Positions 3,143 to 25,384 of a DNA stretch of 55,944 nucleotides are shown here, piece after piece (within the stretch, counting starts at the first letter, position 1; each line of letters opens with the position of its first letter). The notes below the pieces were generated by a model, which had not been told where the DNA came from, ran no database searches, and saw only the letters and a list, made by a program, of their open reading frames with translations. Location of the stretch: the NCBI GenBank assembly GCA_903928915.1, contig CAIYSL010000053.1:1-55944 (forward strand), given 5' to 3'. Both the position numbers and the translations under genes were made by a program. This stretch comes from an uncultured Syntrophobacterales bacterium. GTDB taxonomy: Bacteria; Desulfobacterota; Syntrophia; Syntrophales; UBA5619.

Positions 3143-4087
3143 TTGGCCAGCGACATCATCAATGCAGTGGTCTTCCCCGGACAGGGGAGCCAGCGGTCCG
3201 GGATGGGCAAGGATTTTTTCGAAGCCATGCCGGAGAGCCGCCGCGCCTTTGAAGAGGCGGCGGATGCCCTGGGGTGGGACGTGGGGGCGGTCTGCTTCGG
3301 CGACGATCCCCGGCTCGACCTGACCGAGTACACCCAGCCCTGTCTCGTGGCCACGGAAATCGCCATGCTCCGGGGCCTTGCCGCCCGGTACGGGTTTTCT
3401 CCCCGTCTGTTCGGCGGCCACTCGCTCGGCGAGTTCACGGCGCTCGTCGCCGCCGGCGCGCTTCCGTTCGCGGCCTGCCTGAACATCGTCCAGCGGCGCG
3501 GCCGGCTGATGCAGTCCGCCGTGCCCGTCGGCGTCGGCGCGATGACCGCGGTCATCGCCGACGACCTGGACCCGGCCGCGATCGCCCCGCTGCTCGGGTC
3601 GCTTGCCGTGGACATCGCCAACGTCAATTCCCGCCGCCAGGTCGTCCTGAGCGGCGAGGCAGGGGCGATCGGCGAGGCGGAAGAGCGGCTGCGCGCCGGG
3701 CTTACGGCCCCGTCGCTCCGGTTCGTCCGGCTCAACGTGAGCGCCCCGTTCCACAGCCGTTTCCTGGAGCCGATCGGCGCCCCCTTCCGGGAGGTGCTGG
3801 GCGAGTGGGGCTTCTCGCTCGACCCCGAACGGGCGGTTGCCGTGGTCTCGAACTACCGGGGCGGCTTCCATCAGGGCTCCCGCGAGGAGATCTTCGCGAG
3901 CCTGGCCCTGCAGCTCAGCCACACGGTGCAGTGGAAGGCGAACATGGCGGCGCTCGCGGCCCAGGCCGGCGCCCTCTGGGAGATCGGGCCGGGCAGGCCG
4001 CTGCGCGACTTCTTCCGCACCCTCGACGTGGCCTGCACGTCCGTGACCTCTGTCGCCTCGGCCGAGAAGGCCTTTGCGCCGACCTGA
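3143..4087 (+). CDS. fabD: Malonyl-CoA:ACP transacylase (FabD-like)
   Basis: 314-residue acyltransferase that would load malonyl units from CoA onto ACP to supply the condensing enzymes downstream. The family signatures are VVFPGQGSQ near the start, the nucleophile motif GHSLGE with Ser94, an RR pair around 118-119 and the catalytic His204 in SAPFHSR. Length is normal for FabD. The TTG at 3143 is chosen because AGAAGGAGG lies 6-8 bases upstream and the protein then begins right before the conserved beta strand; the frame stays open far upstream only because of GC-rich DNA. It is the first gene of a long plus-strand operon and follows the sigma-54 promoter. A housekeeping copy probably exists elsewhere; this one is likely dedicated to the cluster. 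Confidence 0.92.
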   Translation: MASDIINAVVFPGQGSQRSGMGKDFFEAMPESRRAFEEAADALGWDVGAVCFGDDPRLDLTEYTQPCLVATEIAMLRGLAARYGFSPRLFGGHSLGEFTALVAAGALPFAACLNIVQRRGRLMQSAVPVGVGAMTAVIADDLDPAAIAPLLGSLAVDIANVNSRRQVVLSGEAGAIGEAEERLRAGLTAPSLRFVRLNVSAPFHSRFLEPIGAPFREVLGEWGFSLDPERAVAVVSNYRGGFHQGSREEIFASLALQLSHTVQWKANMAALAAQAGALWEIGPGRPLRDFFRTLDVACTSVTSVASAEKAFAPT

Positions 4088-4127
4088 ACCAAACGCCCTC
4101 AACCGATAACACGAAGGAGCATGTTTG

Positions 4128-5327
4128 ATGGATTTCAATCTCACCGATGAGCAACGGCAATACCTGGATACGGTGCAGCGGTTCGTGGGCCGCGATATCA
4201 CCCCCCGCATCCTGGAGTTGGAAAAGGGACACCTCTTCCCCTTCGACATCATCCGCAAGGCCTGGGACCTGGGCGTCCTGAACCTCTCGATCCCGGAGTC
4301 GGTCAAGGGCTACGCGATCGACCTGATCTCCACCGCCCTGATCATCCGGGAGCTGTCCTACGGCGACAGCGGGATCGCCACGTCGGCCATGTGCAACGAC
4401 CTGGCGAACGTGGTGATCGCCATGCACGGCACGGACGCGCAGCGCCAGGCCTTCCTGGGACCCTTCGTGGAGCGGCCGCTTCTGGCCTCCTTCTGCCTCA
4501 CCGAGCCCAACGCCGGCTCGGACAACAGCGGGATGACGACCCTGATCCGGAAGGACAAGAGCGGCAAGTACGTGCTCAACGGCCAGAAGTGCTTCATCAC
4601 CAACGCCTCCTTTGCCTCGCAGTTCACCGTGTTCACCAAGGTGGGGAAGACCTCCTCCCCGTTCATCGCCTGTGTCGTGGTCCCGGCGTTCGCCGTCGAG
4701 CCGGAAACGGCGGAGATCGGATCGCAGGCCTGCCGGGAGATCCCGCTTCCCTGCGGCGGGAGGATCGTGACGGGCAAGCCCGAGGATAAGCTGGGGCAGC
4801 GGCTGTCGAACACGGCCACCGTCACCTTCGAGGACGTGGTCATCGAGGAGGACCAGATCATCGGCGACCGGCGGCTCGGGTTCCAGTACCTTACCAACGT
4901 GCTCGACTATGCCCGGCCGATGGTGGCCGCGATCGGCGTCGGGATCGCCCGGCGCGCCCTCGATGTGACGTTGGCCTACACCCGGGAGCGCCGCCAGTTC
5001 GGGCAGCGGATCTGCGACATGCCCGTGGCCCGCGAGATGCTCGTCGAGATGTGGCGGCGGACCGAGCTGGCCGAGATGGCCCTGATGAAGGCGGCCTTCC
5101 TCGTCCAGGAGGGGGCGCCCGACCGGGGGGTGTACGCCTCGCTGGCCAAGAACCTGGCGGCGGATGCGGCGATCTTCTGTTCGGTCCAGGGGCTCCACCT
5201 CCACGGCGGCTACGGGTTCATGTCGGAATACGAAATCTCGAAGCTGGTCCGGGACGCCCAGATCATCGACATCTACGAAGGGGTCCGGGAGGTCCAGAAC
5301 ATGATCATCGGGCGGGAGCTGGCCTGA
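4128..5327 (+). CDS. Acyl-CoA dehydrogenase family flavoprotein
   Basis: 399-residue FAD enzyme that oxidises acyl thioesters to 2-enoyl thioesters and passes electrons to ETF. Visible signatures are SFCLTEPNAGSD (first ACAD signature), NGQKCFITNA, YTRERRQFGQ (FAD-contact arginine region), HLHGGYGFMSEYE and the C-terminal catalytic Glu in DIYEGVREVQ (about residue 384). ATG 4128 follows GAAGGAGC; the TTG just before it is ignored. The next gene starts on its stop codon (TGATG). A dehydrogenase inside a type II synthase-like operon with no enoyl reductase is notable: it may work in reverse as an enoyl reducer, introduce unsaturation, or prepare a CoA starter. Substrate unknown. Confidence 0.93.
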   Translation: MDFNLTDEQRQYLDTVQRFVGRDITPRILELEKGHLFPFDIIRKAWDLGVLNLSIPESVKGYAIDLISTALIIRELSYGDSGIATSAMCNDLANVVIAMHGTDAQRQAFLGPFVERPLLASFCLTEPNAGSDNSGMTTLIRKDKSGKYVLNGQKCFITNASFASQFTVFTKVGKTSSPFIACVVVPAFAVEPETAEIGSQACREIPLPCGGRIVTGKPEDKLGQRLSNTATVTFEDVVIEEDQIIGDRRLGFQYLTNVLDYARPMVAAIGVGIARRALDVTLAYTRERRQFGQRICDMPVAREMLVEMWRRTELAEMALMKAAFLVQEGAPDRGVYASLAKNLAADAAIFCSVQGLHLHGGYGFMSEYEISKLVRDAQIIDIYEGVREVQNMIIGRELA

Positions 5328-6316
5328 TGCTCTACCTGCACGGCATCGGCCATTTTCATCCGGAGAACGTCATCACGAACCGGTTCCTGGAGGAGCTGGG
5401 GATCGGGACCGATGAGGCGTGGATCATGGAACGGGTGGGGATCCGCGAACGGCGGACGGTGCTCCCGCTGGACTACATCCGCGAGACGCGAAACCGGGAG
5501 CCCCGGGTCGCCCACGAGGTGAGTCTGTACCGGAATGCCCAGATGGCGGCGCCGGCGGCGCGGATGGCCCTCGAACGGGCGGGGCTCGCGCCCGCTGACA
5601 TCGGGATGGTCATCTCGGGGAGCAGCATCCCTTCCTACACGACACCGGCCGAAGCGGCGACGGTGGCGGCGGAGCTGGGGATCGACGCCCCCTGCCTCGA
5701 CGTGAACTCGGCCTGCACCACCTTCGGGATGCAGGTCGACCTGCTCAACCGGATGGCCCCGGACAAGCTGCCGCCCTTCGTGCTGATCACCCAGCCCGAG
5801 GGGATCACCCGCGCCATCGATTTCAGCGACCGGTCGTCGGCGGTCCTGTTCGGCGACGCCTGCTCCGCCGCCGTCCTGTCGGCGACGGTGCGGTCGCGGG
5901 TGGCCGTTGTGGAGTCGAACTGCGGGACGAACGCCGCGGCCTGGGAGAAGGTGTCGATCCCCTTTGCCTCCCACTTCCGCCAGGACGGCCACGCCGTCCA
6001 GGGGTTTGCCATCCGCCGGATGACCGAGTCCCTCCAGGCGCTGAAGGCCGGTCTGGGGGATGCGCGGCAGTTCCGGCTGATCGGCCACCAGGCGAACCTG
6101 GGGGCGCTCAGGACCGTGTGCGAACGGGCGGGGATCGCCGACAGCCAGCACTGGCACAACGTGAGCGATTTCGGGAACACCGGGAGCTCGGGGGCGCCCG
6201 CGGTGCTCAGCGCCCACTGGGACGAGCTGGAGCCCGGCGACCGGGTGGCGATCTGCCTCGTCGGGGCGGGGCTGACCTGGGCAAACCTGCTGTTGGCTGT
6301 AGAGGATGTGCGATGA
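5327..6316 (+). CDS. 3-oxoacyl-ACP synthase III (KASIII, FabH-like)
   Basis: 329-residue condensing enzyme of the FabH family, which starts chains by condensing an acyl-CoA with malonyl-ACP. The Cys-His-Asn triad is intact: Cys130 in DVNSACTTFG, His254 in IGHQANLGAL, Asn284 in DFGNTGSSGA. The N-terminal GIGHFHPENVITNRFLEE and WIMERVGIRERR are typical. The start overlaps the upstream stop (TGATG at 5325-5329) and the downstream gene begins inside its last codons (ATGA), so expression is translationally coupled. GNTGSSGAP instead of the usual GNTSAAS may reflect an unusual starter pocket; that is an inference. Confidence 0.93.
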   Translation: MLYLHGIGHFHPENVITNRFLEELGIGTDEAWIMERVGIRERRTVLPLDYIRETRNREPRVAHEVSLYRNAQMAAPAARMALERAGLAPADIGMVISGSSIPSYTTPAEAATVAAELGIDAPCLDVNSACTTFGMQVDLLNRMAPDKLPPFVLITQPEGITRAIDFSDRSSAVLFGDACSAAVLSATVRSRVAVVESNCGTNAAAWEKVSIPFASHFRQDGHAVQGFAIRRMTESLQALKAGLGDARQFRLIGHQANLGALRTVCERAGIADSQHWHNVSDFGNTGSSGAPAVLSAHWDELEPGDRVAICLVGAGLTWANLLLAVEDVR

Positions 6317-6900
6317 CATACGATGAATTCAGAAAACGGTCGAGCTTCGGCCTCGAAGAACTGATCGCCTTCGCCTACGGGACCCTGGTGGACGACCCTC
6401 CGGAGGGGTTTGCGGCCCGCCTGCCGGCGCCGCCGTTTCTGATGGTGGACCGGATCATCGACATCCAGGAAAACGGCCGCCAGGGGAGGATCGTCGCCGA
6501 ACAGGAGATCCGCCTCGACTCCTGGTACTTCCAGTGCCACATGCCCGGCGACCCGGTACAACCCGGCTGTCTTTCGGTGGACGCGGTCTGGCAGCTCTTG
6601 GGATTCTACTGCGTCTGGCGGGGCGCGCTCGGCTCGGGGCGGGCGCTGGGCTGCGGGGAGGTCGCCTTCAGCGGCCAGATCCGCCCGTTCAACCGCGTGG
6701 TGCGGTACGAGGTCGACGTGCGGCGATTCACCCAGCTGAAGGAATCGGGGGCCACCATCGTCATCGGCGAGGGGGTCATCTCGGTGGACGGCGAGACGAT
6801 AACCGAGGTCCACGGGGCCAAGACGGGCGTCTTCAAGGGGATCGCCTATCCGGACTATCCGCGCCGGTCGAAGAACAGCATCGGCGGGCGGCTGGGGTAG
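6313..6900 (+). CDS. fabA: FabA-type 3-hydroxyacyl-ACP dehydratase/isomerase
   Basis: 195-residue hot-dog protein close to FabA. The line FQCHMPGDPVQPGCLSVDAVWQ aligns with the FabA active site ([22 protein letters not shown] in E. coli), with His76 and the catalytic Asp90. FabA, unlike FabZ, has Asp at this place and can isomerise trans-2 to cis-3 enoyl-ACP, creating a retained double bond. ALGCGEVAFSGQIRP continues the match. It is about 20 residues longer than E. coli FabA at the ends. ATG 6313 overlaps the KASIII stop (ATGA). A FabA together with a FabZ in one cluster points to an unsaturated or partly reduced acyl chain. Confidence 0.92.
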   Translation: MTYDEFRKRSSFGLEELIAFAYGTLVDDPPEGFAARLPAPPFLMVDRIIDIQENGRQGRIVAEQEIRLDSWYFQCHMPGDPVQPGCLSVDAVWQLLGFYCVWRGALGSGRALGCGEVAFSGQIRPFNRVVRYEVDVRRFTQLKESGATIVIGEGVISVDGETITEVHGAKTGVFKGIAYPDYPRRSKNSIGGRLG

Positions 6901-6972
6901 GGGCGGACCCTCCCGAAGACCCACGTCCGCGAGCAGATGCGATGAGAAGAAGAAAGAGAAGGGCGGGAAGGA

Positions 6973-7702
6973 ATGGCTGACAAGAGGGTGGCGCTGGTGA
7001 CGGGGGGGGGGGACCGGGATCGGGGCGGCCTGCGTGCGCGAGCTCGCAGCCAAAGGGTTCCGGGTGGGGATCCACTACCGGTCGAGCGCTGACGCCGCGG
7101 CAACGCTGCGGGAGGAAATCGGCGACGGGTTCCTCCTGACGGCCGACCTGGCCGACGTCGACCAGGTGGAGGCCATGGTGGAGCGGCTCAAGCAGGAGAC
7201 AGGAAGGCTCGACTGCCTGGTGAACAACGCCGGCGTCTCCTTCGACTGCGACATGCAGCGGATGCGGATCGAACAGTTCGACCAGCAGCGCGGGGTCCTC
7301 AGGGGCGTCTGGTACCTCACGAAGCGGATCCTGCGCCAGTACATGCTGCGCGCCGACAGCGGCCGGATCATCAACATCTCGAGCGTCGTCGGCCACACCG
7401 GCAACGGCGGCCAGATCCCCTACACCATGGAGAAGGCGGCGCTCGACGCCCTGACGAAATCGCTCTGCCAGGAGCTGAAGGGGCGCAACATCCTGGTCAA
7501 TTCCGTGGCCCCCGGGTTCATCGCCACGGAGATGACGGCGGTCCTGCCGGAGGAGGCCCAGGCGGGGATCCTCGGCCGGGTGCCCCTGGGACGCATGGGG
7601 CGGCCCGAGGAGGTGGCGGAGGTGGTCGGGTTTTTGGCCACGGCCGGATCGTACGTCACCGGCACGGTCATCCACGTGAACGGAGGGATGTATGGAGGCT
7701 GA
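6973..7702 (+). pseudogene. fabG: 3-oxoacyl-ACP reductase (FabG) with frameshift at a G11 run
   Basis: Short-chain dehydrogenase that would reduce 3-oxoacyl-ACP with NADPH. Reading from ATG 6973 gives MADKRVALVTGG, then a run of 11 G (7002-7012). With 10 G the frame would continue as GTGIGAACVRELAAKGF, the classic TGxxxGIG cofactor loop. With 11 the reading frame is lost and soon stops. Downstream the correct frame is intact: LVNNAGVS, INISSVVG (Ser), YTMEK (Tyr and Lys), VNSVAPGFIATEM and NGGMYGG to TGA at 7702. Translation could restart near GTG 7034, but that protein would lack the nucleotide loop. This may be a sequencing error in the homopolymer, slippage or a real mutation. It overlaps the next gene by 11 bases. 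Confidence 0.9.
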
Positions 7703-8180
7703 CCGGTCGATGGTGGAGCGGATCCTGGCGATGGTGCCCCAGCAGCCGCCCTTTCGGTTCATCGAGGAGATCCTCGAACTGGACGATCGGCATTGCGTGG
7801 GGGCCTACCGGTTCCGGATGGACGAGTATTTCTACCAGGGCCATTTCCCGGGGCTGCCGATCACCCCGGGGGTGATCCTGATCGAGACGATGGCCCAGAC
7901 CGGCGTCGTGGCCTTCGGCCTGTACCTGGCGGAGACCGCCGGGAAGGGAAAAGAGCTGACCGAAGACAACGTCACCCTGTTCACCCTGGCGGAGAACGTG
8001 GAGTTCACCGGCGTGGTCCGGCCGGGCGAGCGGGTGGTGGTCACGGGCAGGAAGATCTATTTTCGCGGCAACCAGATCAAGGTCGACGCGGCCATGACGC
8101 GGCCTGACGGCGAGCCGGTCTGTTCCGCCATCCTGTCCGGGAAGGCCGTCCCGCGGGCGGCGTTTGAGAAGCAGCGATAG
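7692..8180 (+). CDS. fabZ: FabZ-like 3-hydroxyacyl-ACP dehydratase
   Basis: 162-residue single hot-dog dehydratase. PPFRFIEEILEL is the usual FabZ opening, and the active-site helix is YQGHFPGLPITPGVILIETMAQ with catalytic His51 and Glu65. The later VEFTGVVRPGERVV corresponds to the KFRRPVxPGDxL strand of FabZ. ATG 7692 lies within the end of the reductase gene, with GGAGGG just upstream. It removes water from 3-hydroxyacyl-ACP in the elongation cycle. Its role relative to the FabA three genes upstream may be chain-length or position specific; that is inference. Confidence 0.92.
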   Translation: MEADRSMVERILAMVPQQPPFRFIEEILELDDRHCVGAYRFRMDEYFYQGHFPGLPITPGVILIETMAQTGVVAFGLYLAETAGKGKELTEDNVTLFTLAENVEFTGVVRPGERVVVTGRKIYFRGNQIKVDAAMTRPDGEPVCSAILSGKAVPRAAFEKQR

Positions 8181-8216
8181 TCAACCAACGGCGATGCCGA
8201 TCGAGGAGTGCAGCGC

Positions 8217-9494
8217 ATGAAGCGTAGGGTAGTCATCACGGGAATGGGGGTAGTCGCGCCGAACGGCCACGGCCTGGCGGAGTTCGAGAAGGCCCTCCGG
8301 GAGGGGATTTCGGGGATCCGGCACATCCCGGAGCTGGCGAAGCTGAGCTTCGCCTGTCAGGTGGGCGGGATACCGCAGGAGTTCGATGCCGTCCGCAGCC
8401 GCTACTTCAGCCCCGAGGAGCTCCAGTCGCTCAACGAGAACATCGGCTATGCCGCCGTGGCGGCGGTCGATGCCTGGACCGACGCGGGATTCGCCGTACC
8501 CGACGCCGAGGACGACCGCGTCCACTGGGATACCGGGGTCATCGCCGGTTCCGGCATCGGCGGGATGGACACCATCGCCCAGCAGCTCGTGCCGATGGTC
8601 AACGCCGGGAACGTTCGGCGGATGGGGAGCCGGATGGTCGAACAGGTGATGAACAGCGGGACGAGCGCCCGGATCGCGGGACTCCTGGCCCTGGGAAACC
8701 AGGCGACGTCCAATTCGTCGGCCTGCAGCACGGGCAACGAGGCGGTGATCGAGGCGCTGGTGCGCATCCAGGACGGTCGCGCCACGCGGATGCTGGCGGG
8801 CGGTTCGGAGGCTGCGTCGCCCTACATCTGGGCCGGGTTCGACGCCATGCGGGTGATCAGCCGGAAGTTCAACGACCGGCCCGAGCAGGCCTCCCGGCCG
8901 ATGAGCGCCAGCGCCGCGGGGTTCGTGCCCGGCGGCGGGGGCGCGATCCTGATGCTCGAGGAGCTGGAAGCCGCCCGGGCGCGGGGGGCGCGGATCTATG
9001 CCGAGATCCTGGGGGGGATGGTGAACTGCGGCGGACACCGGATGGGGGGCTCCATCACCGCGCCCAACCCTGAGGGGGTGAAGCGCTGCATCCAGGGAGC
9101 GGTGGCTGACGCGGGGATCTCCTCCGCTCAGATCGACGCCATCAACGGGCACCTGACGGCGACCTTCGCCGATCCCGTGGAGGTGAAGAACTGGTCGGCG
9201 GCCCTGGGAAGGGGACCGGAGAATTTCCCCTGGATCAACGCCACCAAATCGATGATCGGCCACTGTCTGGGGGCGGCGGGGGCGATCGAGTGCGTGGCCG
9301 TGGTCCTGCAGCTGTTTGGGGGGTTCATCCACCCCTCGCTCAACTGCGAGGACCTCCACCCCGATATCGTCCCGTACGCCAAGAGCGTCCCCCACCGGGC
9401 GGTGGACTGCCCCGAGGTCAAGATCATCGCCAAGGCCGGGTTCGGGTTCGGCGATGTGAACAGCTGTTTGATATTCAAGAAGTGGGAAGAGTGA
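8217..9494 (+). CDS. 3-oxoacyl-ACP synthase II-type elongating enzyme (KASII)
   Basis: 425-residue FabF/FabB-family condensing enzyme that would extend the ACP-bound chain with malonyl-ACP. Nucleophile Cys170 is in SNSSACSTGNEAV. The first His (His312) is in INGHLTATFADPVE, an unusual form of the common HGTSTxxND motif, and Lys344/His349 are in KSMIGHCLGAAGA. The late motif reads FGFGDVNSCL where most KAS enzymes have FGFGGxNA. These deviations set it apart from housekeeping FabF while keeping all catalytic residues. ATG 8217 is preceded by GAGGAG; a GTG nine bases earlier is less well spaced. Confidence 0.92.
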   Translation: MKRRVVITGMGVVAPNGHGLAEFEKALREGISGIRHIPELAKLSFACQVGGIPQEFDAVRSRYFSPEELQSLNENIGYAAVAAVDAWTDAGFAVPDAEDDRVHWDTGVIAGSGIGGMDTIAQQLVPMVNAGNVRRMGSRMVEQVMNSGTSARIAGLLALGNQATSNSSACSTGNEAVIEALVRIQDGRATRMLAGGSEAASPYIWAGFDAMRVISRKFNDRPEQASRPMSASAAGFVPGGGGAILMLEELEAARARGARIYAEILGGMVNCGGHRMGGSITAPNPEGVKRCIQGAVADAGISSAQIDAINGHLTATFADPVEVKNWSAALGRGPENFPWINATKSMIGHCLGAAGAIECVAVVLQLFGGFIHPSLNCEDLHPDIVPYAKSVPHRAVDCPEVKIIAKAGFGFGDVNSCLIFKKWEE

Positions 9495-9563
9495 TTTTTC
9501 TTCCTCCCCCGGGAGGAAGATGGATGGCAACCAATAAACCATGTTTTACAAGGAGGATACACC

Positions 9564-9812
9564 ATGAGTGAAGAGCAGATTACGAAACAGTTCATCGAGA
9601 TTCTGAGGGGGTATGTGAAGGACGCGTCCCTGCTGGAGAAAGCGACGGCAGAGACCCACATCCTCAAGGATCTGAAGGTCAACTCCGCGCGGCTGGTGGA
9701 CATCATCATCAAGTGCGAGGACGTGTTCGGAACGACGATCGACGACGATGAGGCCGATCGGATCGCCACGATCGGGGACGCCGTGACGCTGATCCAGCAG
9801 AAGGCGGCCTAG
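9564..9812 (+). CDS. Acyl carrier protein of the cluster
   Basis: 82-residue acidic four-helix ACP. The phosphopantetheine site is DLKVNSARLVDIII with Ser41; the normal DSL is replaced by NSA, an atypical but Ser-retaining site. It has the usual spacing and a helix III like IDDDEADRIATIGDAV. AAGGAGG lies upstream of ATG 9564. It carries the growing chain between the condensing, reducing and dehydrating enzymes encoded before it. The phosphopantetheinyl transferase 0.7 kb downstream is the likely activator. Confidence 0.9.
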   Translation: MSEEQITKQFIEILRGYVKDASLLEKATAETHILKDLKVNSARLVDIIIKCEDVFGTTIDDDEADRIATIGDAVTLIQQKAA

Positions 9813-9823
9813 CCGAAGGCGCC

Positions 9824-10564
9824 ATGGCAGGGCGGGACCGTTTTTTCCTTTGGCTGCAGTACCTCCTCGGGTATGCGGCGGCGTTCATCACATCGTCGCT
9901 CGTGTTCCTGGCCGTCCGGCTGAAGGGGTACCGCATCCGGGACCTCAAGCGCATCCGCGCCGAGGCGGCCCGCCTGCACCGGGAGCACGAGGGGCCCTGG
10001 CTGATCTGCCCGAATCACCTGACCATGATCGATTCGGTGCTGATCAGCTACGGGCTGGCCTCGCTGGGCGGCCATATTCTCCGCTTCCGGAGGGTTCCCT
10101 GGAACCTTCCGGAGCGGGACAATTTTCAACGCAATATCTTCCTCGCAGTCCTGTGTTACCTGGCCAAGTGCCTCCCCGTCAACCGGGGGGGGAGCCGCGA
10201 GGAGCTCCAGCGGCTCCTCGACAAATGCCGCCGTGTGCTGGACTGGCGGCAGAGCCTGCTGATCTTTCCCGAGGGCGGGCGGTCGCGGTCGGGGCGGGTG
10301 AGCAGGGAAAACTTCTCCTACAGCGTGGGAAGGTTCGTCGACGAAAACCGCGACTGCCGGGTGATGCTCGTCTACCTGCGGGGCGACGGGCAGGAGACCT
10401 GGGGATCGATGCCCCGTCCGGGCGAACTGTTCACGATGAAGGTGGAGGTGTTCGATCCCGGCAGGGCCGAAGGCGGCGGGCTGCGGCTCCAGCGGGAATA
10501 TTCCCGGCGGATCACCGAGCGCCTCGCCGCGATGGAGGAGGAGTATTTTGCCGGGCGTGGGTAA
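9824..10564 (+). CDS. Lysophospholipid-type acyltransferase (PlsC-like)
   Basis: 246-residue membrane-associated acyltransferase. The catalytic block is CPNHLTMIDS (HX4D) at about 64-71; the second block is FPEGGRSRSG. Residues 6-32 form a hydrophobic anchor (LWLQYLLGYAAAFITSSLVFLAV). It would move the finished acyl chain from ACP or CoA to a glycerophosphate or another lipid acceptor at the inner membrane. The start is 11 bases after the ACP stop. The same gene kind accompanies ACP and KAS genes in aryl-polyene-like clusters, so the product is probably membrane-attached (inference). Confidence 0.9.
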   Translation: MAGRDRFFLWLQYLLGYAAAFITSSLVFLAVRLKGYRIRDLKRIRAEAARLHREHEGPWLICPNHLTMIDSVLISYGLASLGGHILRFRRVPWNLPERDNFQRNIFLAVLCYLAKCLPVNRGGSREELQRLLDKCRRVLDWRQSLLIFPEGGRSRSGRVSRENFSYSVGRFVDENRDCRVMLVYLRGDGQETWGSMPRPGELFTMKVEVFDPGRAEGGGLRLQREYSRRITERLAAMEEEYFAGRG

Positions 10565-11258
10565 CGACGTCGTCGACCTGCACGACCCCGACAACCGGGG
10601 GAAAAGCGGGGACGACCGTTTTCTTGGCCGCGTCTTCACCGCCGAGGAGCGGGCACTGATCGCCGGCGCGGCAGTCCCCGACCGGCTCCTCTGGTCGCTC
10701 TGGGCGGCCAAGGAGGCGGCCTACAAGGCCGTCAGCGGCGCAGACCCACCGCCCCATACCATTCCCCGTCGCTATCCCGTTCACATCGGCACCCATTCCC
10801 GACGCGCACCTGTGGCAGACCCCATCTCCCCCTGTCCGACCTTGGTCAGGTCGGCTACTGACACTGCCTGTCTCGCAGGGGCAGAGGATCAATCGGCGCT
10901 CCTGTTCGTCGGAGAGGTGATCACCCCGCGTGGCGCGGTGGCGCTCCGCGTCACCGGGAACGATGACTATGTCCACGCCCTGGCGGCGCTGCCGGATATC
11001 GACTTCGCTGGGATCGTCTCCCGGGTTGATCGGCGGGAGGACGGGGCAAACCCCGGCGATGCGTCGGCCTTCGGCCGCGCACAACTCCTGGCGGAAATCA
11101 GCCGCCGTCTGAATTGCCCCCGGGACGAACTTACCCTCCGGCCGGACCCCTCCGGATCCGGCGCCCCGCGCCTCTTCCGCCGCAACCTGCCCCTCTTCCT
11201 GGCCATCAGCCTCAGCCACGACGGCCGGTTCACGGCCTTTGCCTTCCTGGTTCGCTGA
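10548..11258 (+). CDS. 4'-phosphopantetheinyl transferase (AcpS superfamily)
   Basis: 236-residue enzyme that transfers phosphopantetheine from CoA to the serine of apo-ACP. The signatures are GNDVVDLHDPDN at the N-terminus (Mg-binding Asp), LWAAKEAAYKAVS (Glu/Lys motif) and SLSHDGRFTAFAF at the end. The TTG at 10548 has GAGGAGGAG a few bases upstream and overlaps the acyltransferase end by 17 bases; a GTG at 10557 is the alternative. Between about residues 75 and 110 lies a low-complexity, less conserved stretch whose DNA holds a 7-bp-stem hairpin (10836-10854). It probably serves this cluster's ACP and perhaps the orphan ACPs of modules A and B. Confidence 0.9.
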   Translation: MPGVGNDVVDLHDPDNRGKSGDDRFLGRVFTAEERALIAGAAVPDRLLWSLWAAKEAAYKAVSGADPPPHTIPRRYPVHIGTHSRRAPVADPISPCPTLVRSATDTACLAGAEDQSALLFVGEVITPRGAVALRVTGNDDYVHALAALPDIDFAGIVSRVDRREDGANPGDASAFGRAQLLAEISRRLNCPRDELTLRPDPSGSGAPRLFRRNLPLFLAISLSHDGRFTAFAFLVR

Positions 11259-11342
11259 ACCGGCTGCTGCCGCTTCCGAATCTGCTTGAACCCGGCCCGG
11301 CATTCCGGTACGTTGTCCCGCAGGAAGCGGGTCGGAGGCGTC

Positions 11343-12029
11343 ATGATTTCTCTCATCATCCCGGTGCTGAACGAACAGGCCCAGATCGGCGAGGCGATCG
11401 GGCGCATCCGTTTGCTCGCGGGCGGGGAGCGCGCGGAGATCATCGTGGCCGACGGCGACCCGGCGGGGGGAACCCTGCGGGCGATTTCCGACCCCGCTGT
11501 TCGGGGGATGGTCTGTGCGCCGGGGAGGGGTACGCAGCTCAACCGCGGCGCCGCGGCCGCCGCAGGGGAGGTCCTCCTCTTCCTCCACGCCGACACGAAC
11601 CTCCCGCCCAACGCCTTGACCCTGATCGAGGAGACCCTCCGCGACGAAACGCTGGCGGGCGGGGCCTTCGACCTGGCGATCGCATCGCCGCGGCCCGCCT
11701 TCCGCCTGATCGAACGGGTCGCCTCCCTGCGCACCCGCCTCACCCGGATCCCCTACGGCGACCAGGCGATCTTCCTGCGCCGCGACCGGTTTCGGTCCCT
11801 CGGCGGGTTCCGCGAGATCCCCCTGATGGAGGACGTGGACCTGATGCGGCGGCTGAAACGGGCCGGGGGGCGGATCGCGATCCTTCCCGCGCGGGCCGTC
11901 ACCTCGGCGCGGCGCTGGGAGCGGGAGGGGATCCTGTTCACGACGCTGCGCAACTGGGCCCTCGTCACCCTCTTTCTCCTCGGCGCCGATCCGTGCCGGC
12001 TGGTCCGCTGGTACCGGCCGCACCGGTGA
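11343..12029 (+). CDS. TIGR04283-type family 2 glycosyltransferase
   Basis: 228-residue GT-A fold transferase. ISLIIPVLNEQAQIGEAI opens the nucleotide-sugar domain and FLHADTNLPPNAL carries the metal-binding acidic motif. GGAFDL, YGDQAIFLRRDRF, GGFREIPLMEDVDLMRRL and TSARRWEREGIL are the lines I associate with the TIGR04283 group (rSAM/selenodomain-associated transferase 2, also linked to arsenosugar synthesis). ATG 11343 follows GGAGG. It is the last gene in the same direction as the lipid cluster and may decorate its product. A partner-type transferase (TIGR04282) lies at 20475, outside this operon. Confidence 0.87.
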   Translation: MISLIIPVLNEQAQIGEAIGRIRLLAGGERAEIIVADGDPAGGTLRAISDPAVRGMVCAPGRGTQLNRGAAAAAGEVLLFLHADTNLPPNALTLIEETLRDETLAGGAFDLAIASPRPAFRLIERVASLRTRLTRIPYGDQAIFLRRDRFRSLGGFREIPLMEDVDLMRRLKRAGGRIAILPARAVTSARRWEREGILFTTLRNWALVTLFLLGADPCRLVRWYRPHR

Positions 12030-12144: not shown

Positions 12145-13182
12145 ATGCGCAGCGATCTGGAAGGGACCGTTGAACCGGGGCAGAGTTTTTCCATCGACCG
12201 TTTCCGGCGTGAAGACGCCCCGGGGATAGCCGCGCTGTTTTTCGCCGAATACGGTTCTTCCTACCCGATCGAGACCTACTACGTTCCGGAGCGGATCATC
12301 GCGGAAAACGAGAACGGCAACATCCATTCCGTCGTGGCCCGCACGCCCACCGGGGCAATCATCGGCCATGGCGCACTGTACCGGAGCTCCCCCCCGTACC
12401 CGGACCTCTACGAGATAGGCCAGTACATCGTCCTGCGTGAGTATCGCACCACCTTCGCGGCCTACAAGATCAACCGGTTCATCGCGGAAACCCTCACCGC
12501 CCTGACCGGCCCGTCCGGCATCTTCGGCGAGGCGGTGACCCACATCACCGCCACCCAGAAGTCGTCGGCGCAGATCGGGATGAAGGATGTGGCCCTAGAG
12601 ATGGAACTCATGCCGGCCGCGGCGTACGAGAAGTCGCAGTGCGCTTCCGGTCGGGTCTCCTGTCTGATCCAGTTCCGTTCCTTCCGCGACCGTCCCCAGG
12701 AGATATTCGTTCCGCCGCGGTATCGCGAGGTCGTGGAATATCTCCTCGCCGATGTCGCAATCGAACGGACTCTGACGCCTGCCGCGCAGACGCTCCCCGG
12801 GGACGCCGACACCCGCTTTACCGCCCGGTTCTTCGGGCATGCCGGCGTCGGCCGGTTCAACATCGCCGGACTCGGCAAGGATTTCGCGCGGATCGTGACC
12901 GCCCTGGAACGGGAAGGCCGGGAGAAGAAGATCCTGGTGTTTCAGTTCTTCCTGAACCTGGGCGAACCCGGGGTGGGAGAGGCCGTTTCCGTCCTCAGAG
13001 GGCGGGGGTATTCCTTCGGCGGCTGCGTTCCCCGCTGGTTCGACGCAGACGGCTTGTTGATGCAGAAGGTCCTGGCGCCGCCGGATTTCGACGCCCCCCG
13101 GCTCCATTCGGCAAAGGCCAGGCAGCTCAGGGACTTCGTCCGTTCGGACTGGCAGGATCCGACTTCAGGGCCGGGTCTCTGA
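12145..13182 (+). CDS. Tandem GNAT-like acyltransferase, module A
   Basis: 345 residues in two GNAT-like halves. The first (about 15-175) has the beta-bulge strand IGQYIVLREYR, then EAVTHITATQKSSAQIGMKDV, a common end for GNAT folds. The usual acyl-CoA phosphate loop (Q/RxxGxG/A) is replaced by REYRTTFAAYK. The second half ends ILVFQFFLNLGEPGVGEAVSVL, GYSFGGCVPRWF and DADGLLMQKVL, like the short GNAT fold seen fused to some ATPase regulators. It is a clear paralog of the protein at 24052-25098, which has FFFGGMVPLWF and TDGLLMQQLL. It is convergent with an orphan ACP and ligase. I infer transfer of an ACP-bound acyl group to an unknown amine. ATG 12145 follows GGAAAGGAA. Confidence 0.78.
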   Translation: MRSDLEGTVEPGQSFSIDRFRREDAPGIAALFFAEYGSSYPIETYYVPERIIAENENGNIHSVVARTPTGAIIGHGALYRSSPPYPDLYEIGQYIVLREYRTTFAAYKINRFIAETLTALTGPSGIFGEAVTHITATQKSSAQIGMKDVALEMELMPAAAYEKSQCASGRVSCLIQFRSFRDRPQEIFVPPRYREVVEYLLADVAIERTLTPAAQTLPGDADTRFTARFFGHAGVGRFNIAGLGKDFARIVTALEREGREKKILVFQFFLNLGEPGVGEAVSVLRGRGYSFGGCVPRWFDADGLLMQKVLAPPDFDAPRLHSAKARQLRDFVRSDWQDPTSGPGL

Positions 13183-13288
13183 CCGGGCGGCCTCTCCCGG
13201 GGCCCCCGGCGCGACGCCGGCGATATGCTCAGTCGCCCTTCTTGCGGTACCCGTTCGGGCCCGAGGTCGCGGGCAAAGTACTCTAGCG

Positions 13289-13306
13289 GGGCAGCGATCG
13301 CTGCCC
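13289..13306. repeat. 18-bp perfect palindrome between convergent genes
   Basis: The sequence GGGCAGCGATCGCTGCCC is a perfect palindrome centred on GATC. It lies in the 149-bp gap between the ends of the convergent module A GNAT and ACP genes. It has no T-run on either side, so it is not a clear Rho-independent terminator. A bidirectional stop, a protein-binding site or chance in GC-rich DNA are all possible. Confidence 0.5.
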
Positions 13307-13331
13307 GCCGTCAACCCCGGGCGCCACCGGT

Positions 13332-13571
13332 CTATTTCATCTTTCCGTTTACGTACCGTACGAAGTCGTCGATCGTCTTGAGCTTTGTGGCGTCCGCGTC
13401 GGACAGGTCCACTTTGCAGAGCTTTTCCGCGGCCACGGCAATCGCCGGCAGGTCGATGGAGTCGAGTCCCTGGTCGAGGAGGGGAACGTCATTCTTCAGG
13501 TTCTTGATGATTTCCTCTTCGATGCCCACCTCTTTCATGAGAACAATAACATCCTTCGCAGTGATCTTCAT
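13332..13571 (-). CDS. Orphan acyl carrier protein, module A
   Basis: 79-residue ACP-like protein with the attachment site LLDQGLDSIDLPAIAVA (DSI, Ser about 42) and the expected helices (KITAKDVIVLMKEVGIEEE; TIDDFVRYVNGKMK). ATG 13571 is preceded by GGAGGAGGAACGG. It is transcribed after the ligase gene, 147 bases downstream, probably in one operon from the promoter at 15290-15318. It differs strongly from the ACP at 9564, so it likely serves a separate pathway: loading by the ligase and unloading by the GNAT protein encoded opposite. That assignment is inferred from context. Confidence 0.86.
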   Translation of the reverse strand: MKITAKDVIVLMKEVGIEEEIIKNLKNDVPLLDQGLDSIDLPAIAVAAEKLCKVDLSDADATKLKTIDDFVRYVNGKMK

Positions 13572-13718
13572 CCGTTCCTCCTCCATTTCTCGTTACGTTC
13601 AGGCCACGACTCGATCCTTCCCCGGCCGTCCATTCCTGCCCGGGAGGTCCCTGCACCGCCTTCCCGGTGAGACGGGCAGACGAAACAGCTTCGGGTTGCT
13701 CTGGGCGTTTGTGACGGC

Positions 13719-15221
13719 TCAGGCGCCATCCCCTTCTCGCAAGATATACCGCTGAACCTTTCCGGTCCCGGTTTTCGGTATCTCCTGCACGTAATTGAAC
13801 TGAACCGGACACATGTAGTCCGGGAGACGCTCCAGGATGCGCCCCCGCATCTCCCGCGTCAGTTTCATGTCCCCGGTGAAACCCGGTTTGAGGACCACAT
13901 AGGCCAGGGGTTTCACCAGCCCTTCCAGCTTGCGGGTCGTCACGGCGCATTCCAGGACGGCCGGATGGTCCCGCATGGCCTCCTCCACCTTGAGCGGCGA
14001 CACCCAGGCCCCGCCGGCTTTGAACATGTCGTCCTGCCGGCCCTGGTAGGTGTAGCAGCCTCCGTCCTCCAGGTAGTAATCCCCCGTATTCAGCCACCCG
14101 CCGGCCAGCATGGTCTGCGCGGTCTTTTCCGGCCGGTCCCAATAACGCTGCGCCGTGCTCTTCCCCCGGATGTGCAGGATCCCCTGCTGTCCCGCCGGAA
14201 CGGGCAGGCTGTCCTCGCCGCAGATCCGGGCCTCGTACCCGGGGACGACGAAACCCGACGAGCCGGGCCGGACATCGCCGGGCCGGTTGGAGATGAAGAT
14301 ATGGAGGGCCTCGGTGGAGCCGATGCCGTCGAGGATCTCCAAGCCCGTCAGCTCCTTCCAGGCGTGGTATGCGCTGGCAGGGAGCGCCTCGCCGGCGGAG
14401 ACGCAGAGGCGCAGGGAGGGCAGCGAGACGGGACCGGTCATCGTCTTCAGGAGCATGTTGTACAGCGTGGGCACGCAATACAGGAGGGTCGGCCGGAACC
14501 GGTCGATGATCCGAAAGATATCGCCCGGTCCGGGCTTCCGGTCGAACAGGACCGTCGTGGCGCCGAAATAGAGCGGGAAGATCAGGCTGTTGCCGAGTCC
14601 GTAGGCAAAAAACAGCTTGCTCGCCGAAAAGACGACGTCCCGTTCCGACATCTGCAGGACCTTCCCGGCATACTGGCGGGCGCAGAAGAGCATGTCGCGC
14701 TGGCTGTGGGGGACCCCCTTGGGGTTTCCGGTGCTGCCGGAGCTGTAGAGCAGGAAGGCGATCTGTTCCGGGGCTGCGGGGTGCGGGGCAAGATCTGCGG
14801 CTGCCGCCGCCAACCGCGGCCGACAGGCCTCGTCGTCGACCAGCAGCATCTTCAGGGCGCCCCGGGCCTGCGATGCGGCCGGGCAGGCTCCGACCGTGAC
14901 CAGCGCCGATGCCCCGCAGTCCTGCAGGACGTAACCGTATTCCCGGCCGGACAGGTCGGGGCTGAGGGGGACCGGCACTGCCCCGCACTTCATCGCCCCG
15001 AAAAAGGCGAAAAAGAAGTCCGGTCCGTCGGGGAGGGCCAGGACCACCCGTTCCCCGTTCCCGACGCCCATATCGCGGAGGAGGTTTCCGAAACGGCCGA
15101 TGTGTTCATTCAGCCCCGCGTAGGTGACCTGCTGCCCCGGGCCGGTGAGGGCTACCTTGTCCCCGCGGACGCGGGCATGGTGAGCGAGAATCTCGAAATA
15201 GTCTGCCAAGGATTCCGTCAT
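13719..15221 (-). CDS. Benzoate-CoA-ligase-like adenylating enzyme (acyl/aryl-ACP ligase?)
   Basis: 500-residue ANL-superfamily enzyme that would activate a carboxylate with ATP and pass it to a thiol. Motifs are LLYSSGSTGNPKGVPHS (P-loop), LFFAYGLGNSLIFPLYFGAT (typical of benzoate-CoA ligases), LDGIGSTEALHIFIS (A5), NTGDYY (A7 Asp), RQDDMFKAGGAWVSP (A8) and PKTGTGKVQRY with catalytic Lys488. ATG 15221 is used; a TTG four codons earlier is the alternative. The next gene in the operon encodes an ACP, so the thiol acceptor may be that ACP rather than CoA. The substrate may be aromatic, judging only from the family resemblance. Confidence 0.9.
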   Translation of the reverse strand: MTESLADYFEILAHHARVRGDKVALTGPGQQVTYAGLNEHIGRFGNLLRDMGVGNGERVVLALPDGPDFFFAFFGAMKCGAVPVPLSPDLSGREYGYVLQDCGASALVTVGACPAASQARGALKMLLVDDEACRPRLAAAAADLAPHPAAPEQIAFLLYSSGSTGNPKGVPHSQRDMLFCARQYAGKVLQMSERDVVFSASKLFFAYGLGNSLIFPLYFGATTVLFDRKPGPGDIFRIIDRFRPTLLYCVPTLYNMLLKTMTGPVSLPSLRLCVSAGEALPASAYHAWKELTGLEILDGIGSTEALHIFISNRPGDVRPGSSGFVVPGYEARICGEDSLPVPAGQQGILHIRGKSTAQRYWDRPEKTAQTMLAGGWLNTGDYYLEDGGCYTYQGRQDDMFKAGGAWVSPLKVEEAMRDHPAVLECAVTTRKLEGLVKPLAYVVLKPGFTGDMKLTREMRGRILERLPDYMCPVQFNYVQEIPKTGTGKVQRYILREGDGA

Positions 15222-23053: not shown

Positions 23054-24046
23054 CTACCACCGCATGACAACTGATCCCCACGCCAGGCCGGCCCCAAAAC
23101 CCGTGAGAACCACCACATCGCCCGGTCGTATTCGTCCGGTTTTCACCGCTTCGTCGAGGGCGATGGGAATGGATGCGGATGAGGTGTTGCCGTATCGATC
23201 CAGATTTACCATGAATTTTTCCATGGGCAACCCCATTCTGCGGGCCGCCGCCTGAATAATGCGGATATTGGCCTGGTGGGGTATGATCAGCGCGACATCA
23301 TCCATTGCCAGGCCCGCCATACTCAGGGCCTTTTCCGTCGATTCAGGAAGGACAGTCATACCGAACATGAACACTTCCATGCCCTTCATCCGTACCTTGT
23401 GCATGTTGGCCGCAACAGTATCGGCCGTCAGTTCCGTGCGCGTTCCCCCCGCCGGGACGTAGATGGTATCGTAGCCAGACCCGTCGGCGCCAAGATACGT
23501 AGCCAGGATACCCTGCCCCTCCATCCCCGGTTGCAGCACCACTGCGCCGGCTCCATCCCCGGCCAGGATTGCAACATCAAAATCCTCCCGGTTTATGAGT
23601 CGCGAAAAAAGCTCCGCGCAGACAACGAGAACGTTCCTATACGTGCCGGAAGCAATGAACTGGCTTCCGACGGTCACCGCGTAGACAAAACCGGAGCACG
23701 CAATGTTCAGATCGAAGGCGGCGGCTTTCTTCGAGCCGAGTTTTTCCTGAACGATGGGTGCCGCTGCTGTTGTCATAAAATCAGGACAGAGAGTGGACAG
23801 AATGAGCATATCCACATCGCCGGCGTCAATGCCGGCATCTCTGAGTGCCCGCTCCGCAGCGATGACGGCGAGATCGGATGTGGCCTGGGTTTCATCGGCA
23901 ATATGCCGTTCCCGTATTCCCGACCTCGACTGGATGTGCTCGACACTGACATTGAACTTCTTTGCCAGCGTCTCGGTTGTCAGTACGGCCTCGGGAACAT
24001 AAACGCCGATCCCGGCGATGCGCGTATTGATCCGTTCTGCTGCCAT
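23054..24046 (-). CDS. 3-oxoacyl-ACP synthase III (KASIII), module B
   Basis: 330-residue FabH-family enzyme with an intact triad: Cys in NIACSGFVYAV, His in PHQANIRIIQAAA, Asn in YGNTSSASIP. The N-terminus RIAGIGVYVPEAVLTTETLAKKF and SGIRERHIADE are typical. It is the last gene of a three-gene minus-strand operon (ACP, GNAT, KASIII), starting 5 bases after the GNAT stop, with GGATAGGGAGA directly before ATG 24046. It differs from the KASIII at 5327. In this context it could build or transfer a beta-ketoacyl group on the operon's own ACP. Base composition is lower in G+C than the flanks, suggesting separate acquisition. Confidence 0.93.
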   Translation of the reverse strand: MAAERINTRIAGIGVYVPEAVLTTETLAKKFNVSVEHIQSRSGIRERHIADETQATSDLAVIAAERALRDAGIDAGDVDMLILSTLCPDFMTTAAAPIVQEKLGSKKAAAFDLNIACSGFVYAVTVGSQFIASGTYRNVLVVCAELFSRLINREDFDVAILAGDGAGAVVLQPGMEGQGILATYLGADGSGYDTIYVPAGGTRTELTADTVAANMHKVRMKGMEVFMFGMTVLPESTEKALSMAGLAMDDVALIIPHQANIRIIQAAARRMGLPMEKFMVNLDRYGNTSSASIPIALDEAVKTGRIRPGDVVVLTGFGAGLAWGSVVMRW

Positions 24047-24051
24047 TCTCC

Positions 24052-25098
24052 CTATCCCCGGGTATTCGTATGTGCAGTATCGTCCCCGCCCTGTTCTCGA
24101 ACCGTTTGCCGATCGATCTTGATATACTCGAGCAGTTCTTTTGCCAGGGGGGTATAGAGCTTCATCCCCGCATAGTGTGGTTCGTCTGCAAGAAGTTGCT
24201 GCATGAGCAGCCCGTCCGTTCCGAACCAGAGAGGCACCATTCCGCCGAAAAAGAAACCGTTCCCGCGGAGAACTTCCACTGCGGTGCCGACAGAGGGAAG
24301 CGCCATATTGACGGTGACCTGCAGGCTGATTACGTCGCGCTGCCGTGCGCGACGCACAATGTCCTCTACCACCGCAGTCCAGTCGCTGCCCATATCCCTG
24401 AATGACAGTTTCCATGTCCGGGAAGCGGGATAGTATCGCTCTTCCGGAGTGGATGTCCCGTGGACGGGCATACCGGTCTTGGACAGGAGCAGCTCCCGCG
24501 GGCGCAACCTGTCGGCGATCCTGCGGAGAATAGCTTCATACCGAACCGGGACATACACGGGCCCGGTCCGGTCGATGGTTTCCTTAAAGCTGAGCACGCA
24601 GGAGACCCTGGCCGAGCCTGCCTTGTTGCTCTTCCCATCCTTGAAGCTGCTGCCGTCCAATTGATCCAGTTCGAGTCCGCAATCGACCAGGCCGGTCTCT
24701 GCGCCGCTTTTTTGCGTAAAATAATGAGAACAAACCGCTTCCGTAAAGAATCCATCCATCTCGGCAGCCCGGCTCGAGATGAGCTCCTCGTAATAGCGAA
24801 ACAGCCGCAAAGAAAGATCGGTGTCGGGGTTCCCCGGGACAATCACGATGTTTCCCGTTTCCCAGAGGCGGGGATTGGGAGCGTTCCTGAATAGGGAGAT
24901 GTATCCCGCCGGCTGTCCGTCCGCGCGGAATGCCAATGCCGAGACGATCTGCCCGGTCTGGATCTTGCTCCAGAGAAGCTCGGGATCGTAAACATCCCGG
25001 ACGTGAAAGTCCTCGCCATAGACAGAACGGAAGACGGTCGCCACATGGTGAATGTTGTCCGAATCGACGGCGACAAATCGGTATCGTTCGTCCGCCAA
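24052..25098 (-). CDS. Tandem GNAT-like acyltransferase, module B
   Basis: 348 residues, paralogous over its full length to the module A protein at 12145-13182. Matching landmarks in order are VFRSVYGEDFHVRDVYDPE, SLFRNAPNPRLWETGNIVIV, YVPVRYEAILRRIADRL, VTVNMALPSVGTAVEVL, FFFGGMVPLWF and TDGLLMQQLL. As in A, the acyl-CoA pyrophosphate loop is not canonical (VPGNPDTDLSLRLF). The TTG at 25098 is favoured because AAAAGGGG lies about 8 bases upstream and it starts 4 bases after the ACP stop; an earlier TTG at 25119 is possible. The position between a dedicated ACP and a KASIII suggests it uses an ACP-bound substrate. The acceptor is unknown. Confidence 0.8.
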   Translation of the reverse strand: MADERYRFVAVDSDNIHHVATVFRSVYGEDFHVRDVYDPELLWSKIQTGQIVSALAFRADGQPAGYISLFRNAPNPRLWETGNIVIVPGNPDTDLSLRLFRYYEELISSRAAEMDGFFTEAVCSHYFTQKSGAETGLVDCGLELDQLDGSSFKDGKSNKAGSARVSCVLSFKETIDRTGPVYVPVRYEAILRRIADRLRPRELLLSKTGMPVHGTSTPEERYYPASRTWKLSFRDMGSDWTAVVEDIVRRARQRDVISLQVTVNMALPSVGTAVEVLRGNGFFFGGMVPLWFGTDGLLMQQLLADEPHYAGMKLYTPLAKELLEYIKIDRQTVREQGGDDTAHTNTRG

Positions 25099-25102
25099 CG
25101 GG

Positions 25103-25352
25103 TCACCCCTTTTCCGCAAGGCGCCTATCCAAATACTCGACGGCGGAGCCTACGGTGGTAAGCGTCCGTGCATCCGCCAGAGGTATCTTGAGAGAGAATT
25201 CCGCCTCCGTTGCGACCACGAGCTCCGCAAGATCGATGGAGTCGAACTCCAAGTCTTCAATCAGTCGCGTATCGGCCTTCAAATTGGCAAGCGGAAATTG
25301 TTTCCTTCTTGAGCTTCAGAATAGCCTTGCACGCCCTCTCCATCGTCGACAT
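25103..25352 (-). pseudogene. Orphan acyl carrier protein, module B (frameshifted)
   Basis: From ATG 25352 (GGGAGGA upstream) the frame reads MSTMERACKAILKLKKETIS and then stops early. In the next frame, from about 25290, comes a full ACP core: ANLKADTRLIEDLEFDSIDL, then VATEAEFSLKIPLADA, ending RRLAEKG with TGA at 25105-25103. The modification Ser in EFDSIDL is present. One extra base between about 25290 and 25310 explains the break; removing one T in the GCTTGCC stretch would give ISAANLKADTR. It may be a real mutation or a sequence error. As first gene of the module B operon, its loss would disable the pathway, or the ACP of module A would have to substitute. Confidence 0.82.
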
Positions 25353-25384
25353 AGAATATCCTCCCTGGTTTATTTGTATTCTTA

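Follow-up and report, generated by a model that had tools for sequence, protein, structure and literature searches.

A candidate CoA-independent aroyl-ACP relay formed by a benzoate-ligase-family enzyme, an acyl carrier protein and a GNAT-like protein in an uncultured Syntrophobacterales bacterium

We analysed a 55,944-nucleotide stretch of DNA (contig CAIYSL010000053.1, hereafter the window) from an uncultured Syntrophobacterales bacterium, in which three neighbouring genes encode a benzoate-CoA-ligase-family adenylating enzyme of 500 amino acids (13719–15221, minus strand), an acyl carrier protein (ACP) of 79 amino acids (13332–13571, minus strand) and, convergent to them, a GNAT-like acyltransferase of 345 amino acids (12145–13182, plus strand). 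The gaps are short, 147 bp between the ligase and ACP genes and 149 bp between the ACP gene and that for the 345-residue protein. This triad is co-localised and co-inherited, both enzymes have suffered losses at their coenzyme A (CoA) sites, and the ligase has a benzoate-type pocket. Judging from these sequence features, the triad probably constitutes an ATP-dependent but CoA-independent aroyl-ACP relay, in which the GNAT-like protein would use acyl-ACP. A first-pass annotation had proposed that the ligase loads the ACP and that the GNAT protein takes the acyl group from it; gene order, parallel divergence of the components and two independent CoA-site changes all support this proposal.

The ligase matches PF00501 (E = 2e-84) and PF13193 and scores 464.7 bits against the TIGR02262 benzoate-CoA ligase family, above the curated cut-off of 375.25, in agreement with its initial description as benzoate-CoA-ligase-like. 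Overall, it is 41–43% identical to the BadA/BCL and anthranilate-CoA ligases of this family (PDB 2v7b, 4eat and 4wv3), with ~43% identity to 2v7b. The benzoate cavity of BadA is shaped by six residues, Y228, G327, S328, T329, H333 and I334 (PMC7277991), all of which are kept in the ligases of the window and of genomes G348 and G332, while the other triad ligases differ at one or two of them. This pocket supports the earlier suggestion of an aromatic acid, and a small, benzoate-like aromatic acid is our best guess for the substrate. Whereas BadA/BCL and the anthranilate-CoA ligase carry YKxPR at the CoA-nucleotide site, the window ligase has YMCPV (13803–13817, minus strand) and an adjacent dedicated ACP. 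The pattern is general: [YH]M[CL]PV is found near the C-terminus of all seven ligases with an ACP gene beside them, whereas [YF]K, in nearly every case continuing as x-P-R or x-P-W, occupies the equivalent site in 25 of the 25 other ligases, these being the best-scoring relatives with no ACP within 1.5 kb. Thus, the basic residues of the CoA-nucleotide site, within [YF]Kx[PL][RW], appear to have been replaced in all triad ligases. This region is presumably equivalent to that of Phe473 and Arg475 in 4-chlorobenzoate-CoA ligase. The latter residues contact the adenine and the 3′-phosphate of CoA (PMC10455477). The ACP-adjacent ligases form one clade, with a support of 97 in the SH-like approximate likelihood ratio test (SH-aLRT), which is nested in the benzoate-CoA ligase family. 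In adenylation domains of nonribosomal peptide synthetases, LPxYM(I/V)P is the A9 motif. Of the ten A motifs, A9 is the only one that a review leaves out of those found across the wider superfamily (PMC8388817).

The putative carrier of the acyl group has the features of an ACP: the window ACP matches PF00550 (E = 5e-7) and, as had been noted at the outset, its DSI site is intact, with the phosphopantetheine-bearing serine in the sequence GLDSID (subfamily motif QGxDS[IVM]DxP). This serine, S38, is invariant in six homologs, and the start codon at 13571 is preceded by GGAGGA and matches the start of the ortholog. When the ACP subfamily was searched alone, it was found in only six of the 395 sampled genomes of the phylum, five of which contain the triad and the sixth (G442) only a ligase-ACP pair; a class-wide search added only G001. 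In G442, the ACP gene is divergent from that of a ligase with an HMCPV motif (L181, 8551–11257), with no GNAT gene beside it, and the nearest member of the acyltransferase family is a fragment ~70 kb from the pair. Two or three genes resembling B12-dependent radical SAM proteins are located near this pair.

The 345-residue protein itself has no Pfam or NCBIfam matches, but its start agrees with that of an ortholog (L006/L035; 66% identity) from another genome of the same genus, and it belongs to a family which includes relatives of ~500 residues with an N-terminal HATPase_c_2 domain (PF13581, E = 1e-24) followed by a region matching PF00583. Homologs of the window protein match PF00583 or PF13508, with the best E value of 7e-7 obtained for an HATPase-fused form, and the short and HATPase-fused long forms are linked by BLAST E values down to 7e-28. 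The PF00583 match of the fused homologs falls in the corresponding region, so that membership of the GNAT superfamily follows by transitivity for the N-terminal half of the window protein. The first-pass annotation had described two GNAT-like halves; this is supported, indirectly, for the first half but not for the second. A tandem GNAT organisation, as in MshD or PamZ, gained no support at the sequence level: comparison of the N- and C-terminal halves with hhalign yielded a probability of 0.7%. Profile searches of the PDB with the C-terminal half retrieved no GNAT and nothing relevant, and those with the whole family likewise retrieved nothing relevant, including no MshD-like chain and no sequence match to FeeM. 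Conservation of the C-terminal half extends across the whole family. Since neither approach uncovers a second GNAT domain, the protein appears best called GNAT-like, with an uncharacterised C-terminal half.

The CoA site of the GNAT-like protein is altered as well. The CoA-pyrophosphate loop, motif A (R/Q-x-x-G-x-G/A), had been reported as missing, and the window protein indeed fails the motif: in the degenerate loop REYRTTFAAYK (12436–12468, plus strand), the arginine is kept and the R-x-x-G glycine is replaced by phenylalanine. All ten proteins of the ACP-linked clades have lost the P-loop glycine, which 59 of the 75 other short members retain. Family-invariant residues, such as E129, Q138 and R170, are retained in the window protein, which is therefore not decaying. 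The ACP-linked clades are two, namely, that of the triads and one comprising the second ACP-associated family member of the window, encoded in what we refer to as module B, and its counterpart in locus L140.

The ligase-ACP-GNAT triad recurs in six genomes from five families, that is, more than expected by chance: in the window and in genomes G001 (L035), G348 (L087), G332 (L094), G258 (L138) and G099 (L142). In the last four, all three genes are co-oriented, the ligase gene first and the GNAT gene last, with a 4-bp overlap between the ACP and GNAT genes in L142, and the triad of L094 is embedded in a second conserved operon, denoted type I and described below. In a tree of 94 members of the acyltransferase family, the six triad proteins fall into one clade of eight (SH-aLRT 99); the remaining two members are a lone gene (L036) and that of L133, which is overlapped by a PPTase-like gene, identified by sequence (PPTase, 4′-phosphopantetheinyl transferase), and is accompanied by convergent ACP and ketosynthase genes. 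Pairwise identities among the six triads are correlated across the three proteins (r = 0.89–0.97), which argues for inheritance of the triad as a unit. A passive co-localisation, whereby one ancestral block spread by horizontal transfer without functional coupling, is very improbable: the patchy distribution (6/395 genomes), the single origin of the block and the variable orientation of the GNAT gene are compatible with it, but adjacency is kept down to 35–40% identity despite the rearranged orientation, and the changes at the two CoA sites are coordinated.

These observations suggest the following scheme. The ligase would adenylate a small aromatic, benzoate-like carboxylate with ATP and transfer the acyl group not to CoA but to the phosphopantetheine arm carried by the dedicated ACP in its holo form. 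The GNAT-like protein would then dock the resulting aroyl-ACP and pass the acyl group to an acceptor which, given GNAT chemistry, would most likely be the primary amine of a small molecule, yielding an amide, that is, an N-acyl (N-aroyl) product. In related clusters, such as those of the L094 and L138 types, a HisC-like pyridoxal phosphate-dependent enzyme is a candidate source of the acceptor, and the product might exit via an MFS transporter.

Several points weigh against this scheme. The GNAT fold is supported for the N-terminal half only, and by transitivity, and AlphaFold, run on three sequences (the window protein, the L006 ortholog and the window paralog), produced an unusable model with a predicted local distance difference test score of 38.6. 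In two of the triads, those of the window and G001, the GNAT gene converges on the ligase and ACP genes and is not co-transcribed with them. The p-values for the CoA-site changes overstate independence: the switch from [YF]Kx[PL][RW] to [YH]M[CL]PV (7/7 versus 25/25; Fisher p = 3e-7) arose once on the ligase tree, and the glycine contrast (Fisher p = 2e-6) involves two clades and two origins. Loss of the glycine is not exclusive to the ACP-linked members either, since it is also gone in 16 of the 75 members without an adjacent ACP, and the CoA site is poorly conserved among aryl-CoA ligases in general (PMC8388817). Homologs without ACPs or ligases, which the first-pass annotation had named as evidence against its proposal, are indeed the rule across the family: neither an ACP nor a triad-type ligase is encoded near ~75 of 85, and the loop glycine is kept by most as well. 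They are not the rule in the clade of the window protein.

Alternatively, a polyketide or fatty-acid pathway, for instance, that encoded at 3143–12029, could receive its starter unit from the ligase and ACP, with the GNAT-like protein playing an unrelated or only regulatory role. Genes for an acyl transferase, a ketosynthase, FabA-like proteins, FabG and a PPTase are indeed clustered directly upstream on the plus strand, the clade member of L133 is paired with a ketosynthase and an ACP, and genes for β-ketoacyl-ACP synthase III (KASIII) occur near L138, L140 and module B. However, in the six triads, the ligase and ACP accompany the GNAT gene and not ketosynthase genes, no such cluster adjoins the G001 triad, and the CoA site of the GNAT protein is altered in every ACP-linked clade, which makes this explanation improbable.

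Regulatory roles of the GNAT-like protein appear less likely still. Pat recognises a P-x4-G-K motif, and the window ligase keeps this motif around Lys488. In several bacteria, GNATs acetylate AMP-forming CoA ligases (PMC11255334, for AcuA-AcsA; PMC11619455), so that the 345-residue protein could be a Pat/AcuA-like regulator which acetylates the catalytic lysine of the ligase, the pair then constituting a degradation module that forms CoA thioesters under post-translational control. This is quite unlikely because the P-loop glycine of an acetyl-CoA user is lost exactly in the triad clade and an ACP is conserved; besides, a triad-type ligase is missing near most family members, the ligase has lost the basic residues at its own CoA site, and the ACP encoded between the ligase and GNAT genes in four genomes would be left without a role. 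The same loop loss and ACP conservation render it highly unlikely that the protein acetylates a small aromatic effector, with the ligase and ACP belonging to separate metabolism, as might be suggested by the GNAT BadL of R. palustris, which generates the product governing a benzoyl-CoA synthetase operon (PMC6191541). Unlike the window protein, which does not match PF00583, BadL is an acetyltransferase of that family, and reductase or dearomatising genes are absent near the triad.

Beyond the triads, the acyltransferase family is widespread, with at least one member in 68 of the 395 genomes and five in the source genome. Most of the short members are encoded in or near the type I operon, which comprises genes for an HATPase-GNAT protein (~440 residues), a HisC-like aminotransferase, large, small and medium subunits of a xanthine-dehydrogenase-like molybdenum hydroxylase, an MFS transporter, a GNAT, STAS, RsbW and SpoIIE proteins and a periplasmic-binding-type protein. 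The operon is seen, for example, in L007 (8978–18761; G000:C18) and in ~40 related loci, such as L093, L094 and L102, with varying gene content; in L183 (764–3193), the HATPase-GNAT and HisC parts are joined in one 809-residue protein. We found no published account of the type I operon in the literature searched. Among mobile elements, the viral contigs searched contained no relatives of the acyltransferase family, and the plasmids searched contained one, inside a type I operon of Ca. Thiodictyon. We tentatively suggest that the triad might be an ACP-using offshoot of this unnamed family, which would ancestrally reside in the type I operon and make an as yet undiscovered N-acylated metabolite under partner-switching control, acyl-ACP having taken the place of acyl-CoA as donor when both CoA sites were lost.

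Other family members are found in diverse settings. In L050 (1387–10587), an HATPase-GNAT fusion lies in a run with an MFS gene and genes for two phenylacetate-CoA-ligase-like and two LuxE/LuxC-like proteins, as judged from their sequences. In L008 (1208–10800; G000:C139), a member faces a convergently oriented cluster that recalls those for aryl polyenes and apparently encodes an ammonia lyase, a thioesterase, a GT2 glycosyltransferase, an MMPL-type exporter and acyltransferase look-alikes, and L122 (7612–11790; G147) contains four tandem GNAT-family copies. Module B of the window consists of genes for an ACP (25103–25354), the second family member (24052–25098) and KASIII (23054–24046; PF08541/PF08545), all on the minus strand, an ACP-GNAT-KASIII order shared with L140. 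The second family member had been called a close paralog with its own dedicated ACP. At 30% identity to the 345-residue protein, it is not close, and together with the L140 protein it forms its own clade (SH-aLRT 100) apart from that of the triads. Its ACP is split into two overlapping frames by a 1-bp shift near 25270–25300 relative to the intact L140 ACP, which may reflect an assembly error or a pseudogene.

The type II fatty-acid/polyketide synthase-like cluster (3143–12029, plus strand) ends 115 bp upstream of the GNAT gene on the same strand and includes genes for an acyl transferase, an acyl-CoA dehydrogenase, a KASIII-like protein, two FabA-like dehydratases, FabG, a ketosynthase, an ACP, a PlsC-like protein, a PPTase and a GT2 protein. 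The PPTase (10557–11258, plus strand; PF01648, E = 6e-13) is a possible activator of the window ACP.

The triad is of interest as a compact, co-inherited set of three genes: the sequences of its two enzymes both record the change from CoA to carrier protein, so that ideas on the conversion of acyl-CoA chemistry into carrier-protein chemistry can be tested on it. YMxPV beside an ACP gene could serve as a signature to tell aryl ligases that load carriers from true benzoate-CoA ligases, two groups which current annotation does not distinguish, and the common but unnamed partner family suggests that anaerobic bacteria make an uncharacterised metabolite.

Several known systems are comparable. The N-acyl amino acid synthase FeeM, related in fold to LuxI and BjaI, is likewise a GNAT-like N-acyltransferase taking its acyl group from a carrier protein, but it differs from the window protein in length and architecture, and the PDB profile search gave no sequence match to it. 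We know of no benzoate-family ligase that partners FeeM. BadL and AcuA/Pat, too, are GNATs with a functional link to aryl or acyl ligases, but use acetyl-CoA as donor, without an ACP (PMC6191541, PMC11255334). The closest likeness is to the biosynthesis of altemicidin and SB-203208, in which the ACPs SbzG or SbzK are loaded by one of two adenylating enzymes and a GNAT transfers the acyl group, SbzC acting after SbzB and SbzI after SbzL; in the SbzB-SbzC reaction, CoA could not replace the ACP (PMC6331615). There, as in the six triad loci, three free-standing components, an adenylating enzyme, an ACP and a GNAT or GNAT-like protein, are encoded together. Since these relays have been characterised, the principle is already known, and the first-pass description of an undescribed system was too strong. 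The Sbz enzymes, however, activate β-methylphenylalanine or 2-sulfamoylacetate, belong to a single Streptomyces cluster of 18 genes in which each component occurs twice, and include SbzC, which resembles mycothiol acetyltransferase. What appears to be new in the triad, found in another phylum, is the combination of a different, benzoate-ligase-family enzyme with a GNAT-like family lacking Pfam and NCBIfam matches.

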